Shown: positions 30,280 to 34,512 of the stretch, piece after piece
How the letters are laid out: every line of letters starts with the position of its first letter
Position numbering within the stretch: position 1 is the first letter of the stretch
Assembly: GCA_023248355.1 (NCBI GenBank)
Contig: JAHFES010000013.1
Coordinates: 1-37,397, forward strand
DNA length: 37,397 nt
Origin: Nitrospiraceae bacterium
GTDB lineage: Bacteria > Nitrospirota > Nitrospiria > Nitrospirales > Nitrospiraceae
Reading direction: 5' to 3'
Notes under the pieces: generated by a model
Told to the model about the DNA's origin: nothing
The model's database searches: none
Seen by the model: the letters and a program-made list of their open reading frames with translations, nothing else
Program-made: the position numbers and the translations under genes

Positions 30280-30611
30280 TATCTCCTCCCACCAGGAAGA
30301 TCGTTTTTCGCTACCCGCACTTCACCCGGAGCGACTTGAGGTCCCGGCCCACCATCAGGCCTAGATTGGACCATGATCACCTGCCCCTGTTGCGGCAAGC
30401 CCATGCCGAGTTTTTCCGACGCCACTTTGGCGATCCGGTCAGGCGCACTCAGCGCGGAGAACTTGACCTGAAGCTCATCTCGCTCACGTTGAAGCATGAC
30501 CCTATCGTGCTTCAGTCGTTCGATCTGATACCCCACCCGAACCATATCCACTCGCTCCCACACGAACATGAAGACCAGGCACAGCCCCACAAATACAGCG
30601 AGTATTCTCAT
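30279..30611 (-). CDS. ftsL: cell division protein FtsL
   Basis: A 110-residue bitopic protein. It has a short N-terminus, one hydrophobic helix (about 2-20), then a coiled-coil/leucine-rich segment (about 25-60: VGYQIERLKHDRVMLQRERDELQVK) and a DRIAKVASEKLGM box typical of FtsL/DivIC. It links FtsQ to FtsWI activation. The A of its ATG is shared with the rsmH TGA, and its stop overlaps the ftsI start, so all three genes are coupled. The call relies on topology and position, because FtsL is poorly conserved. Confidence 0.9.
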   Translation of the reverse strand: MRILAVFVGLCLVFMFVWERVDMVRVGYQIERLKHDRVMLQRERDELQVKFSALSAPDRIAKVASEKLGMGLPQQGQVIMVQSRPDGGPGPQVAPGEVRVAKNDLPGGRR

Positions 30612-31561
30612 CAGGCCATCCCTTCCGGTAGACGTTCAGCTACCCGCAGCTTGGCACTCCGTGCCCTCGGATTCGCTCGACACTCTTCTTCAGTGGGAAC
30701 GACGGGCTTCTTAGTGAGGATCGCGAGTCTTGCTCCAGGCCCTTGAGCAAGAGATCGAAAGGTGTGCTTTACGATGCGATCCTCGAGAGAATGAAAAGAG
30801 ATCGCACAGATTCTTCCGCCTGGAGCCAACACATCGACCACATCCCGAAGTGACGGCTCCAAACTTTCAAGCTCGCGATTGACGGCAATGCGAAGCGCCT
30901 GAAATGTCCTCGTTGCACAATGTAGACGTCCATGCCGATATGACGATGGCACCGACCCTGCAATGACGGAAGCCAGAGCACCCGTCGTCTCGATCGGGCG
31001 GCGCTCCCGCTCTCGCACAATCGCACGCGCGATCCTCCGAGAATACCGCTCTTCCCCATGCTGAAAAATGATGTCCGCGAGTTCGCCCTCTGGATAGGTG
31101 TTCACAAGCTCTGCAGCCGTTGGGCCAGTCGTTTGATCCATGCGCATATCGAGCGGCCCTTCCTGCTGAAAACTGAATCCTCGCGCAGGATCGTCAAGCT
31201 GAGGAGACGACACACCAAAATCAAAGATCACCCCGTCAACCTTTGAGATCCCTACACCGGCCAGATGACGTTTCAAATCCTGATGATTGCCCTGCAGCAG
31301 CACCACCCGCTCTCCAAATCGCACCAGCCGCTCTTTAGAGAAAGCAAGCGCCTGGGAATCTCGATCCAACCCTATGAGCCTGGTGCCAGGAGCACTAGCC
31401 TCCAGTATCAAATCAGCATGCCCACCATATCCCACCGTACAATCAAGAACTGTCATTGGCCGTTGAAAACTAAGCCAAAAGCAAATTTCTTTGCCTAGTA
31501 CAGGAACATGTCTTGATTCATCAACAATATGAATTCCCCACTCATTACCACTTTTACCCAC
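30611..31561 (-). CDS. rsmH: 16S rRNA (cytosine-1402-N4)-methyltransferase RsmH
   Basis: RsmH methylates C1402 of 16S rRNA using S-adenosylmethionine. The 316-residue protein shows HVPVLGKE, SAM motif LDCTVGYGGHA (about 39-49), GLDRDSQALAF, FDFGVSSPQLDD, GFSFQQEGPLDMRM, TFQALRIAVNRELE and ISFHSLEDR. The only conventional in-frame start before HVPVL is GTG 31561, which lies just 10 nt after the -10 box of the predicted promoter, so the mRNA could be nearly leaderless. An ATT codon at 31528 with GGGGA 6 nt upstream is an alternative. It is the first gene of the dcw run; the usual upstream partner mraZ is absent. Confidence 0.94.
   Translation of the reverse strand: MGKSGNEWGIHIVDESRHVPVLGKEICFWLSFQRPMTVLDCTVGYGGHADLILEASAPGTRLIGLDRDSQALAFSKERLVRFGERVVLLQGNHQDLKRHLAGVGISKVDGVIFDFGVSSPQLDDPARGFSFQQEGPLDMRMDQTTGPTAAELVNTYPEGELADIIFQHGEERYSRRIARAIVRERERRPIETTGALASVIAGSVPSSYRHGRLHCATRTFQALRIAVNRELESLEPSLRDVVDVLAPGGRICAISFHSLEDRIVKHTFRSLAQGPGARLAILTKKPVVPTEEECRANPRARSAKLRVAERLPEGMA
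31537..31561 (-). promoter_or_regulatory. MraZ-box-like triple GTGGK repeat
   Basis: On the minus strand GTGGG (31561-31557), GTGGT (31551-31547) and GTGGG (31541-31537) recur at exact 10-nt intervals, directly after the dcw promoter. E. coli MraZ is known to bind TGGGN direct repeats separated by 5 nt in front of mraZ; the spacing here is the same. The repeats overlap the first codons of the longest rsmH frame. Confidence 0.5.
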
Positions 31562-31843: not shown

Positions 31844-31872
31844 TTGACATGTCTTTGATTGGGGGCGACAAT
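31844..31872 (+). promoter_or_regulatory. possible promoter for the repeat-protein gene
   Basis: TTGACA (31844-31849), a 17-nt spacer and GACAAT (31867-31872) lie on the plus strand. An overlapping alternative is TTGATT (31855-31860), 17 nt, TATGAT (31878-31883). The first would start transcription close to ATG 31879. Confidence 0.4.
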
Positions 31873-31878
31873 GTTTTT

Positions 31879-32940
31879 ATGATATTGAAGGCTGTAGATT
31901 CAGTAGGGCACAATTCCAGGAGGGCGTGCAGAGCCATCCCCTTGTTGATGGCACTATTCTTTCCTGCAGGTATTACTTGGGCCGCTCCTCCTGTTGAATT
32001 CTGCGAGAACCGCACTCCAGACCAGCAATTGGGCGCAGCCAAAGGGGACTCCTCAGCGAATAACCGCGGGAAATGTATTCCTCTAGTAGAGAAAAGAGAA
32101 AAAACCTCCGGCGACGAGGGCAGCGCTGGTGAGAAAACTCGTGAATTGAAGATCGAGAATCTTCAAACCGAAGTCACGGCATTTCTTCAGAAGTACAATC
32201 AGTTTCTGGAGTGCTGTAAGACGGACATCGCCGAACTGCAAACAGTGGAAGAGCTTGGCGACGAAGTCGGCGAATTGCTTGCACTGGCACAAACTGGCCT
32301 CTTCAGCGAGCATATGAAACTCCGCGGCTGGACGCTACGTGAATTACTCCCCCCTGTCGCCAAGACGCGCGCTGACCTGAAGACGTTGCGCGAAAAACTC
32401 GAGTACGTTGGCACAAGCCGAGAGAAGCTTGGCGAGCTTGATTACGAGGAGTCAGCGCGAGAAGCGGCGCGGCTTCGTGAAGTGGAAGACTCCATCGATA
32501 AGGACATTCGATCACAGGCCTTACCTACAGGTCCGAAAACCGGAACGAGCATTGGGGCCAATTCTAGCGTGGGCGGTGCGATTGGAAAAACCCCGAGGAC
32601 TGGGACGCAGATTGGGGCCGAAGGCGCCGTCGGCGCAGATCTCGGCGCCAACCCCAAAGCGGGCAGGGACATTGGCGCGACGGGCCCGACCGGTTTTGAA
32701 ATCGGCGCGACAGGCCGAGCCGGCGCAGACATCGGCGAGTCTCGTTTGAATTCAGATCAATCCGCAGTGGGGTCGAGCTTGCAGCAGTCGACGGTCGGAT
32801 CGAGCATTTCAGATACGACCGTGGGATCAAGTCTCGGACGATCGACCATCGGCTCCAACTTGAGTGACACCTCTATCGGTTCGACGCTCGGGGGATCGTC
32901 GGTCGGATCCAGCCTGCAGAATCGCGGCACCAGCCGGTAG
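31879..32940 (+). CDS. exported helical protein with two C-terminal tandem-repeat arrays, unknown function
   Basis: I do not recognise the family. From ATG 31879 (353 aa) there is a credible signal peptide: RRACR, hydrophobic IPLLMALFFPAGITWA, cleavage near 35-36. A charged helical region follows (about 88-210, likely partly coiled coil) with paired Cys112-Cys113. Next come seven consecutive 10-residue units of pattern [T/V/A]-G-x-x-[I/L]-G (221-290). Last come six 9-residue units of pattern [V/I]-G-S-[S/N/T]-[L/I] (296-349). The phasing has no insertions. Such repeats suggest a beta-solenoid or extended surface structure, which is inference. Upstream in-frame starts (ATG 31849 and 31804, TTG 31795) would put over 50 residues before the hydrophobic core, so 31879 is preferred. 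It is divergent from the dcw operon and convergent with a lipoprotein gene. Confidence 0.75.
   Translation: MILKAVDSVGHNSRRACRAIPLLMALFFPAGITWAAPPVEFCENRTPDQQLGAAKGDSSANNRGKCIPLVEKREKTSGDEGSAGEKTRELKIENLQTEVTAFLQKYNQFLECCKTDIAELQTVEELGDEVGELLALAQTGLFSEHMKLRGWTLRELLPPVAKTRADLKTLREKLEYVGTSREKLGELDYEESAREAARLREVEDSIDKDIRSQALPTGPKTGTSIGANSSVGGAIGKTPRTGTQIGAEGAVGADLGANPKAGRDIGATGPTGFEIGATGRAGADIGESRLNSDQSAVGSSLQQSTVGSSISDTTVGSSLGRSTIGSNLSDTSIGSTLGGSSVGSSLQNRGTSR
32539..32748 (+). repeat. tandem array of seven 30-nt coding units
   Basis: Seven contiguous in-frame 30-nt units encode decapeptides with Gly at position 2, Ile or Leu at position 5 and Gly at position 6 (TGTSIGANSS, VGGAIGKTPR, TGTQIGAEGA and so on). 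DNA identity between units is much lower than protein-pattern identity, so the array is old or selected at the protein level. Confidence 0.85.
32764..32925 (+). repeat. tandem array of six 27-nt coding units
   Basis: Six contiguous in-frame 27-nt units encode nonapeptides (AVGSSLQQS, TVGSSISDT, TVGSSLGRS, TIGSNLSDT, SIGSTLGGS, SVGSSLQNR). Unit ends alternate between types such as S-D-T and G-R-S, hinting at an 18-residue higher-order repeat. Confidence 0.85.
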
Positions 32941-32970: not shown

Positions 32971-33987
32971 TCAATTGCTGACATACAGAGCCGGCATCGG
33001 CGTCCAGGTATTACCGGCGTCTTGACTGTGATACAGCCCGCTTCCATTGGTGCCTGCGTAAAAGATTTTCGGATCAGTTGCGCTCTGCGCAATCGTTCGC
33101 ACGTTCGTGGTCGTGAACCCGCTATTGATTGATTTCCAGCTTCCGCCGCCATCTTCACTCCGATGCACGCCCTCGCGACCGACAATGTAGATCACGCCTT
33201 TCCTGGCTCGATCGAGAATCATCGAAATAATCATCTGATCTTGGAGTGAGTCCCCGATCCGTTTCCACGACTTGGCGGCATCAGTCGTCTTGTAGAGCCC
33301 GGCCAATGTCGCAGCATAGACCGTATCGGGCTCGTAGGGATCGACCAGAATCGATGTGACATTCAAGGCACGCGACGTCTTCACCATGTCGGGTGGCACT
33401 AACCCGTTGTTTACCTGTTCCCAATGGCCCGCCTGATCAATCGACTTGTACACCCCGCCGCTCGTCCCCGCGTAGAGAATCGATGGTCGCGTCGGGTCCA
33501 TCCCCAAGGTCACCACCATCAGCACTTCCTTCATACCGTCCATCTTCTTCGACCAATTCTCACCGCCATTTTTGGTCTCAAACACACCCATCGTCGTGGC
33601 CAGAAAGATATGATTGCTGTCGGCCGGGTCGAACACGAACTGATTCACCACCGACGAAATCGTCACATCATCCAGCCCCGAGCGCATCGATCTCCAGACT
33701 TGGCCACCATCATGACTCTTAAACACCGCGTCGCCTTTTGTCCCCACATACACAGTGGCGGGGTAGGCCAGATCGATCGCCATCGTAATGACCCGCGAAT
33801 GGCTCATGCCTTTCGAAAGATTCGCCCAGGTCTGCCCGCCGTCGCGCGTCTTATAGATGTAGTCGTTCGTCGCCACGTAGATGATGTCCGGATTCTTGGG
33901 GTGAAGCTGGAGAACAACGATGGGATCGCTGCGATTGCAGCCTGTAAGTGCGGCAGCGAGAAGAAGGCGCGCGAGAAATATATTCAT
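32971..33987 (-). CDS. lipoprotein with Asp-box beta-propeller repeats
   Basis: The 338-residue protein begins with a lipoprotein signal (LLLAAALTGC, Cys at about 17). It then carries repeated Asp-box/BNR-like units ending in D/N-G-G-x-x-W: RDGGQTW, HDGGQVW, KNGGENW, DQAGHW, TDAAKSW, EDGGGSW and QDAGNTW. Between them recur strands such as DIIYVATN, ATVYVGTK, SILYAGTS, DTVYAATL and KIFYAGTN. This is the seven-bladed YCF48/sortilin/sialidase-like propeller pattern without a recognisable enzyme active site. A role as a secreted or membrane-anchored binding or assembly protein is likely, but the target is unknown. It starts 27 nt after yajQ, with a modest AGGG ribosome site, and converges on the repeat-protein gene with a 30-nt gap. 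Confidence 0.85.
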   Translation of the reverse strand: MNIFLARLLLAAALTGCNRSDPIVVLQLHPKNPDIIYVATNDYIYKTRDGGQTWANLSKGMSHSRVITMAIDLAYPATVYVGTKGDAVFKSHDGGQVWRSMRSGLDDVTISSVVNQFVFDPADSNHIFLATTMGVFETKNGGENWSKKMDGMKEVLMVVTLGMDPTRPSILYAGTSGGVYKSIDQAGHWEQVNNGLVPPDMVKTSRALNVTSILVDPYEPDTVYAATLAGLYKTTDAAKSWKRIGDSLQDQMIISMILDRARKGVIYIVGREGVHRSEDGGGSWKSINSGFTTTNVRTIAQSATDPKIFYAGTNGSGLYHSQDAGNTWTPMPALYVSN

Positions 33988-34014: not shown

Positions 34015-34512
34015 TTACCTATAGTTGGTGAACTGCAGTTCAATGCTGAAATCTTTGCTTTTCAGAAATGCCATCGCCGCTTGCAACTCATCCTTGCTCT
34101 TGCCCAGCACGCGGACCTGCTCGCCTTGAATCTGCGCTTGTACTTTCAATTTCGATTCCTTCACCGCTTTCGTAATCTCTTTGGCTTTTTCGATCGCAAT
34201 ACCGCTTTGAATCTTGGCGGTCTGCCGCACCGTCCCGCTCAGCGCCGGCTCGATAGCGCCATAATCGAACGCCTTCAGCGACACCCCGCGCTTCGTACAC
34301 TTCGTCTTGATAATGTCGATCACCGCGTTCAACTTGTACTCGTCATCCGACACGATCACGAGTTCCTTTTCTTTCTCCTTCAGCGTGATCTCCGTCTTCG
34401 TGTCCTTGAAGTCGAAGCGCTGCTTCACTTCCTTCGTCGCCTGATCGACCACGTTCCGCAGTTCCTGCATGTTCACTTCTGATACGACATCGAATGAAAA
34501 TTGATCAGCCAC
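34015..34512 (-). CDS. yajQ: YajQ-family nucleotide-binding protein
   Basis: A 165-residue member of the YajQ (UPF0234) family, two ferredoxin-like RNP-type domains. In Xanthomonas a homolog binds cyclic di-GMP; in E. coli a member binds nucleic acid or GTP. The start SFDVVSEVNMQELRNVVDQA, RFDFKDTKTEI and the C-terminal VRVLGKSKDELQAAM are typical. The start is GTG 34512 with a strong AAAGGAGG upstream, chosen for that ribosome site. It lies downstream of a long inverted repeat that separates it from cstA. Confidence 0.94.
   Translation of the reverse strand: MADQFSFDVVSEVNMQELRNVVDQATKEVKQRFDFKDTKTEITLKEKEKELVIVSDDEYKLNAVIDIIKTKCTKRGVSLKAFDYGAIEPALSGTVRQTAKIQSGIAIEKAKEITKAVKESKLKVQAQIQGEQVRVLGKSKDELQAAMAFLKSKDFSIELQFTNYR

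Follow-up and report, generated by a model that had tools for sequence, protein, structure and literature searches.

The S-layer cassette of Clostridioides difficile (slpA) is a multi-allelic surface locus whose product, SlpA, probably serves as a phage receptor (PMC8809339, PMC10100898). The Nitrospiraceae locus described here shares with the slpA cassette a fixed chromosomal position between conserved neighbours, and several deeply different allele classes whose distribution cuts across lineage. It differs in comprising one small gene rather than a five-gene cassette, in not encoding an S-layer protein, in that its exchanges are old and lie between species and genera, and in that its surface exposure and phage binding are putative. 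A second point of comparison is the RTX beta-roll, which is likewise built of 9-residue units with an 18-residue super-period. However, the Nitrospiraceae units (VGSSLxxST and xxxGxxIGxx) lack the GGxGxDxUx calcium motif and have no Pfam match, the protein has an N-terminal signal peptide instead of the RTX C-terminal type I secretion signal, and its tail is predicted to be unstructured. Nitrospiraceae also carry paralogues (class C; L042:8660-9499, L145 and L146), which are exported proteins encoded at other chromosomal places. They share with the repeat protein a signal peptide, a YWC ... GCxPLVE motif, a CC pair and PPTGPEIGTT-like 10-residue tail units, but are shorter and lack the 9-mer array.

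The repeat gene (31879-32940, + strand) lies in a 37,397-nt stretch of Nitrospiraceae DNA, hereafter the window, and encodes an exported repeat-tailed protein of 353 amino acids that belongs to allele class A1 and to no known family, as seen from its translation, family searches and orthologues. All of its segments are given on the + strand. The predicted Sec signal peptide (residues 1-35; 31879-31983) has recognizable n, h and c regions and no lipobox, and its cleavage site, read from the sequence, falls between TWA and AP (LLMALFFPAGITWA before the cut, APP after it); it is the least conserved portion of the protein across orthologues. A cysteine segment with the motif [FWY]C ... CxPL (residues 36-72; 31984-32094), containing C42 and C66, separates it from a charged, helical head (residues 81-215; 32119-32523) delimited by AlphaFold2 and alignment, in which a C112-C113 pair is found. 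In the alignment, C42 and C66 are invariant across classes A1, A2 and B and the paralogue, as is the C112-C113 pair, and the four head cysteines probably form two disulfides. The tail is rich in Gly, Ser and Thr and is made of short units whose number is fixed in class A1. Array 1 (residues 219-288; 32533-32742) consists of seven gapless 10-residue units of the form xxxGxxIGxx, from PKTGTSIGAN to GRAGADIGES, with a 20-residue super-period. The 8-residue linker RLNSDQSA (residues 289-296; 32743-32766), which is kept among A1 orthologues, leads to array 2 (residues 297-350; 32767-32928), where six 9-residue units of the form VGSSLxxST, from VGSSLQQST to VGSSLQNRG, have an 18-residue super-period; the protein then ends in TSR. 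Translation and autocorrelation confirmed the architecture described in the original prediction for this open reading frame, namely a signal peptide, a helical charged middle, and 7 x 10-residue and 6 x 9-residue repeats.

In the autocorrelation analysis, identity within array 1 was 0.48 at lag 20 and 0.37 at lag 10, and within array 2 it was 0.56 at lag 18 and 0.47 at lag 9, the super-periods of 20 and 18 residues being stronger than the basic periods of 10 and 9. The best periodicity value was reached by 0 of 2000 shuffles for each array, and the same analysis found no comparable period in the helical head. At the DNA level the repeats are faint: Tandem Repeats Finder (TRF) reported a single array of 2.3 copies of 30 bp (75% match, score 75), and synonymous divergence from unit to unit approaches saturation (pS 0.71-0.74; dN/dS 0.21-0.27), which upholds the earlier argument that diverged DNA units under a strict protein pattern indicate selection. 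Between A1 orthologues, the arrays are conserved as well as or better than the head, with 93% and 91% identity against 78% for the head in the orthologue of genome G021. Tail length is 135-136 amino acids in 14 of the 15 distinct A1 tails, 11 of these 15 have seven 10-mers by a strict pattern, as do 12 of the 13 A2 tails, and six 9-mers occur in all 15 A1 tails. Because length and unit number are near-constant and dN/dS is about 0.05-0.13 in most comparisons of the arrays (maximum 0.23), we conclude that the tail is under purifying selection. Microsatellite-like expansion and contraction of the arrays was rejected for A1, where copy number is constant and the DNA units are saturated. The number of 9-mers varies in A2 (6, 5, 4 or 2). 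Array 2 is naturally shortened in G197 (L078), which has two 9-mer units against six in its relatives.

Of 175 Nitrospiraceae genomes searched with a 20-row profile, 167 contained the family, whereas the 94 remaining genomes of the class gave no hit; a phylum-wide search added one weak match, covering tail positions only. Three of the eight Nitrospiraceae genomes without a match were re-examined; two of these, G201 and G213, are small (1.7-1.8 Mb) and have kept the neighbouring Asp-box gene, and in G213 rsmH adjoins the Asp-box gene with no such open reading frame between them. We found no family match in Pfam, NCBIfam, PHROGs or PADLOC, nor in the PDB by sequence or by fold. A PAH match fell below the cut-off and spans only 31 residues. 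No relative was found among IMG/VR viral contigs and phage records, and carriage as phage cargo was rejected within those sets. This exported protein family did not turn up in literature searches on envelope proteins, leaderless genes and repeat proteins of Nitrospira. On these searches it is a Nitrospiraceae-specific family of putatively exported proteins with no known family match, and, together with the low dN/dS, they agree with the original prediction that the protein represents an exported family not previously recognised, whose two phased arrays are under selection.

The gene occupies a conserved slot. To its left, ftsI, ftsL and rsmH run leftward, with rsmH (30611-31561, - strand; conserved position and tree) heading the divergent dcw cluster. 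To its right, an Asp-box lipoprotein gene, yajQ and cstA also run leftward. The convergent lipoprotein gene (32971-33987, - strand) encodes a BNR/Ycf48-like beta-propeller with the lipobox LTGC, identified by Pfam (PF15902, 1.2e-22; PF14870, 9e-11), synteny and trees; the YajQ-like gene beyond it (34015-34512, - strand), assigned from its sequence, is conserved as well. Direct search placed the repeat gene in the same slot in 20 of the 21 larger orthologous regions, two of whose contigs end early on one side; the 21st region (G005) fell below the direct-search threshold, and its placement comes from other genome searches. In a wider sample drawn from many genera, in which a few genomes overlap the earlier set, the Asp-box-yajQ side was convergent in 40 of 40 loci, and rsmH was present in most of these short stretches. 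The divergent arrangement with rsmH and the dcw cluster and the convergent one with the Asp-box gene, both read from the window at the outset, are therefore conserved in relatives. Elsewhere in the order, families lacking the repeat gene still have the Asp-box gene, with different neighbours on the repeat-gene side. Ycf48-like Asp-box lipoproteins occur throughout the order, with paralogues. RsmH varies unusually widely among Nitrospira species (60-80% identity, against 80-91% for FtsI).

A leaderless promoter of its own appears to drive transcription of the repeat gene. It is a sigma70-type sequence fused to the start codon (31844-31881, + strand) and supported by conservation and a promoter scan: TTGACA (31844-31849), a 17-nt spacer, GACAAT (31867-31872), six nucleotides, and ATG (31879). 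The scan detected it independently with 10 of 12 matches, and the window's own genome has a single instance of the exact pattern, at this position. About 70 of 78 sequences, drawn from all classes, carry TTGAC-N17/18-nAnAAT-N6-ATG at their start codon, a count in which some genomes appear twice and a few sequences depart by one or two bases. The element is consistent with a leaderless transcript and supports the start codon at 31879. Since the promoter is common to classes A and B, it would either be kept by selection or lie outside the exchanged segment.

The orthologues in this slot fall into at least three ancient classes, A1, A2 and B, with G075 mixed. Class A1, that of the window, has an EFC motif and a tail of seven 10-mers and six 9-mers, and class A2 has a YWC motif and a tail of seven 10-mers and two to six 9-mers. 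Class B often carries KDFNPDNPLN ... YWC and has a tail of 108-118 amino acids with looser units of 12-13 residues, such as GTDIQDTTLPNR. The strict 10/9 double array is therefore the property of one allele group, and many orthologues in the same slot have the 12-13-residue pattern instead. Relatives of class B thus lack the 10/9 periodicity, which could have spoken against the original prediction, but through replacement or deep divergence of the gene rather than frameshift. A1 and B proteins are about 28% identical, against about 80% for the adjacent Asp-box protein in the same genomes, and proteins within a class have themselves diverged (e.g., 60-68% identity). In no genome searched did two classes occur together at the locus. 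Where a second copy exists, it is a fragment or the distant third type elsewhere (class C, with PPTGPEIGTT units).

The distribution of the classes conflicts with the species tree, which we examined with one genome per species. A gene tree built from the head alone separates A and B (support 100/99) and breaks up both genus g1 and genus g25, and AU tests on this tree reject the monophyly of g1 (p = 1e-43) and of g25 (p = 1e-40). The RpoB tree recovers both genera (99/99 and 98/95). Tail type is an independent discrete marker and agrees with the gene tree. On a tree of RpoB combined with AlaRS (AlaRS was not used alone), at least six class changes are needed, and a single clade for A (p = 9e-83) or for A1 (p = 6e-19) is rejected; the A2 genome G162 groups with the A1 genomes G022 and G025 (100/100), and the A2 genome G122 with the A1 genomes G123 and G120 (98/97). 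Genus g1 itself is neither recovered nor rejected by this tree (p = 0.45), so that some of the steps within g1 could be fewer. The Asp-box plus YajQ tree and the RsmH tree also scatter the allele classes. Between G022 (A1) and G162 (A2), DNA identity is mostly 70-78% in rsmH, about 50-57% in the repeat gene and 77-85% in the Asp-box gene, while the same-class pair G022 and G025 has no gene-sized drop beyond the signal peptide and an intergenic stretch. Divergence between classes is thus confined to the repeat gene. The locus has features of a multi-allelic surface-protein locus: it is fixed, its flanks are conserved, and its classes conflict with the species tree. Because no searched genome combines two classes there, and any second copies are fragments or class C genes elsewhere, repeated in-place replacement would be the simplest account of the conflict. 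Judged from the divergence already present within classes, the exchange events are old and do not represent rapid antigenic switching.

Gene replacement between stable neighbours is a pattern usual for externally recognised proteins. We tentatively favour, at somewhat below an even chance, the explanation that the gene product belongs to the envelope or the surface and that its alleles are recurrently replaced in place as a result of external recognition. Lineages would repeatedly have swapped A1, A2 and B in place beside the Asp-box gene, and homologous recombination within the conserved flanks would be the simplest route. The protein would be located in the envelope, its exposed tail forming an extended and largely flexible array, and class replacement would be favoured if an outside agent, such as a phage, a predator, a competitor or a class-specific partner, recognised it. 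The sequence shows a predicted signal peptide; both surface exposure and the selecting agent are inferred. Against this explanation, selection within classes is purifying and not positive, and together with the age of the exchanges this speaks against a rapid arms race centred on the tail.

A less probable but still serious reading is that the protein is a periplasmic spacer, a flexible, length-constrained linker in the envelope, and that the classes are ancient tandem paralogues lost at random. AlphaFold2 modelled the head as helices (81-93, 95-112, 117-139, 153-184 and 189-209) with pLDDT mostly 70-85, and in two runs, of the whole protein and of the tail alone, it modelled the tail without strands at pLDDT 32-44, from an alignment of only nine class A1 sequences. 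This predicted disorder suits a spacer, as do the near-constant tail length and the lack of a surface anchor and of recent exchange, and differential loss of ancient tandem paralogues would yield the same trees. However, this requires three or more paralogues to have been kept next to each other across many splits, when no searched genome has two at the locus, and class C, the only genuine paralogue type, is encoded at other places and is separate in kind.

The original prediction had proposed two stacked beta-solenoids or a surface stalk, of which the latter may hold. As a rival to recurrent replacement for recognition, the solenoids would be an ordered stalk on the helical head in which two units form one 18- or 20-residue coil, as in the RTX beta-roll. 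Super-periods that exceed the basic periods, a near-fixed unit number and tail length in A1, and strong purifying selection on the arrays are all consistent with such a stalk. The strandless AlphaFold2 tail counts against it; with a nine-sequence alignment, that result only weakens the solenoid. In addition, a single hydrophobic residue per 10-mer would make a poor core, there is no aspartate or calcium ladder, class B occupies the same slot without the period, and the 9-mers drop to two to five in some A2 proteins. Fold searches of the PDB and BFVD gave no match at E <= 0.001, and the BFVD hits resemble low-complexity or helix matches. We regard an ordered solenoid as unlikely. It is more doubtful still that the protein works together with the Asp-box lipoprotein, a beta-propeller resembling an assembly factor, in an envelope complex: the convergent pairing behind the initial suggestion of a two-part system persists throughout the family, including loci where no rsmH is seen alongside, but the suggestion is weakened because the Asp-box protein stays 65-88% identical while the repeat gene switches class, its tree does not follow the classes, and the Asp-box gene is retained without the repeat gene in G213, G201 and other families of the order.

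In soil, wastewater and drinking water, members of Nitrospira carry out nitrite oxidation and comammox, and what recognises their cells is, to our knowledge, poorly known. The wider possibility, which we consider rather improbable as it stands, is that this is an unnoticed Nitrospiraceae recognition locus, at which classes of a single exported protein persist and pass between species because they govern susceptibility to phages or predators, or cell compatibility in nitrifying aggregates. A strictly repeated tail is here constant in length and phase across a class, while the homologous slot of a sister species holds a quite different protein. Present in nearly all members and restricted to the family, with old class replacement at a single locus, the repeat protein is a concrete candidate for a determinant of phage or partner recognition, for a strain-typing marker and for a localisation target.
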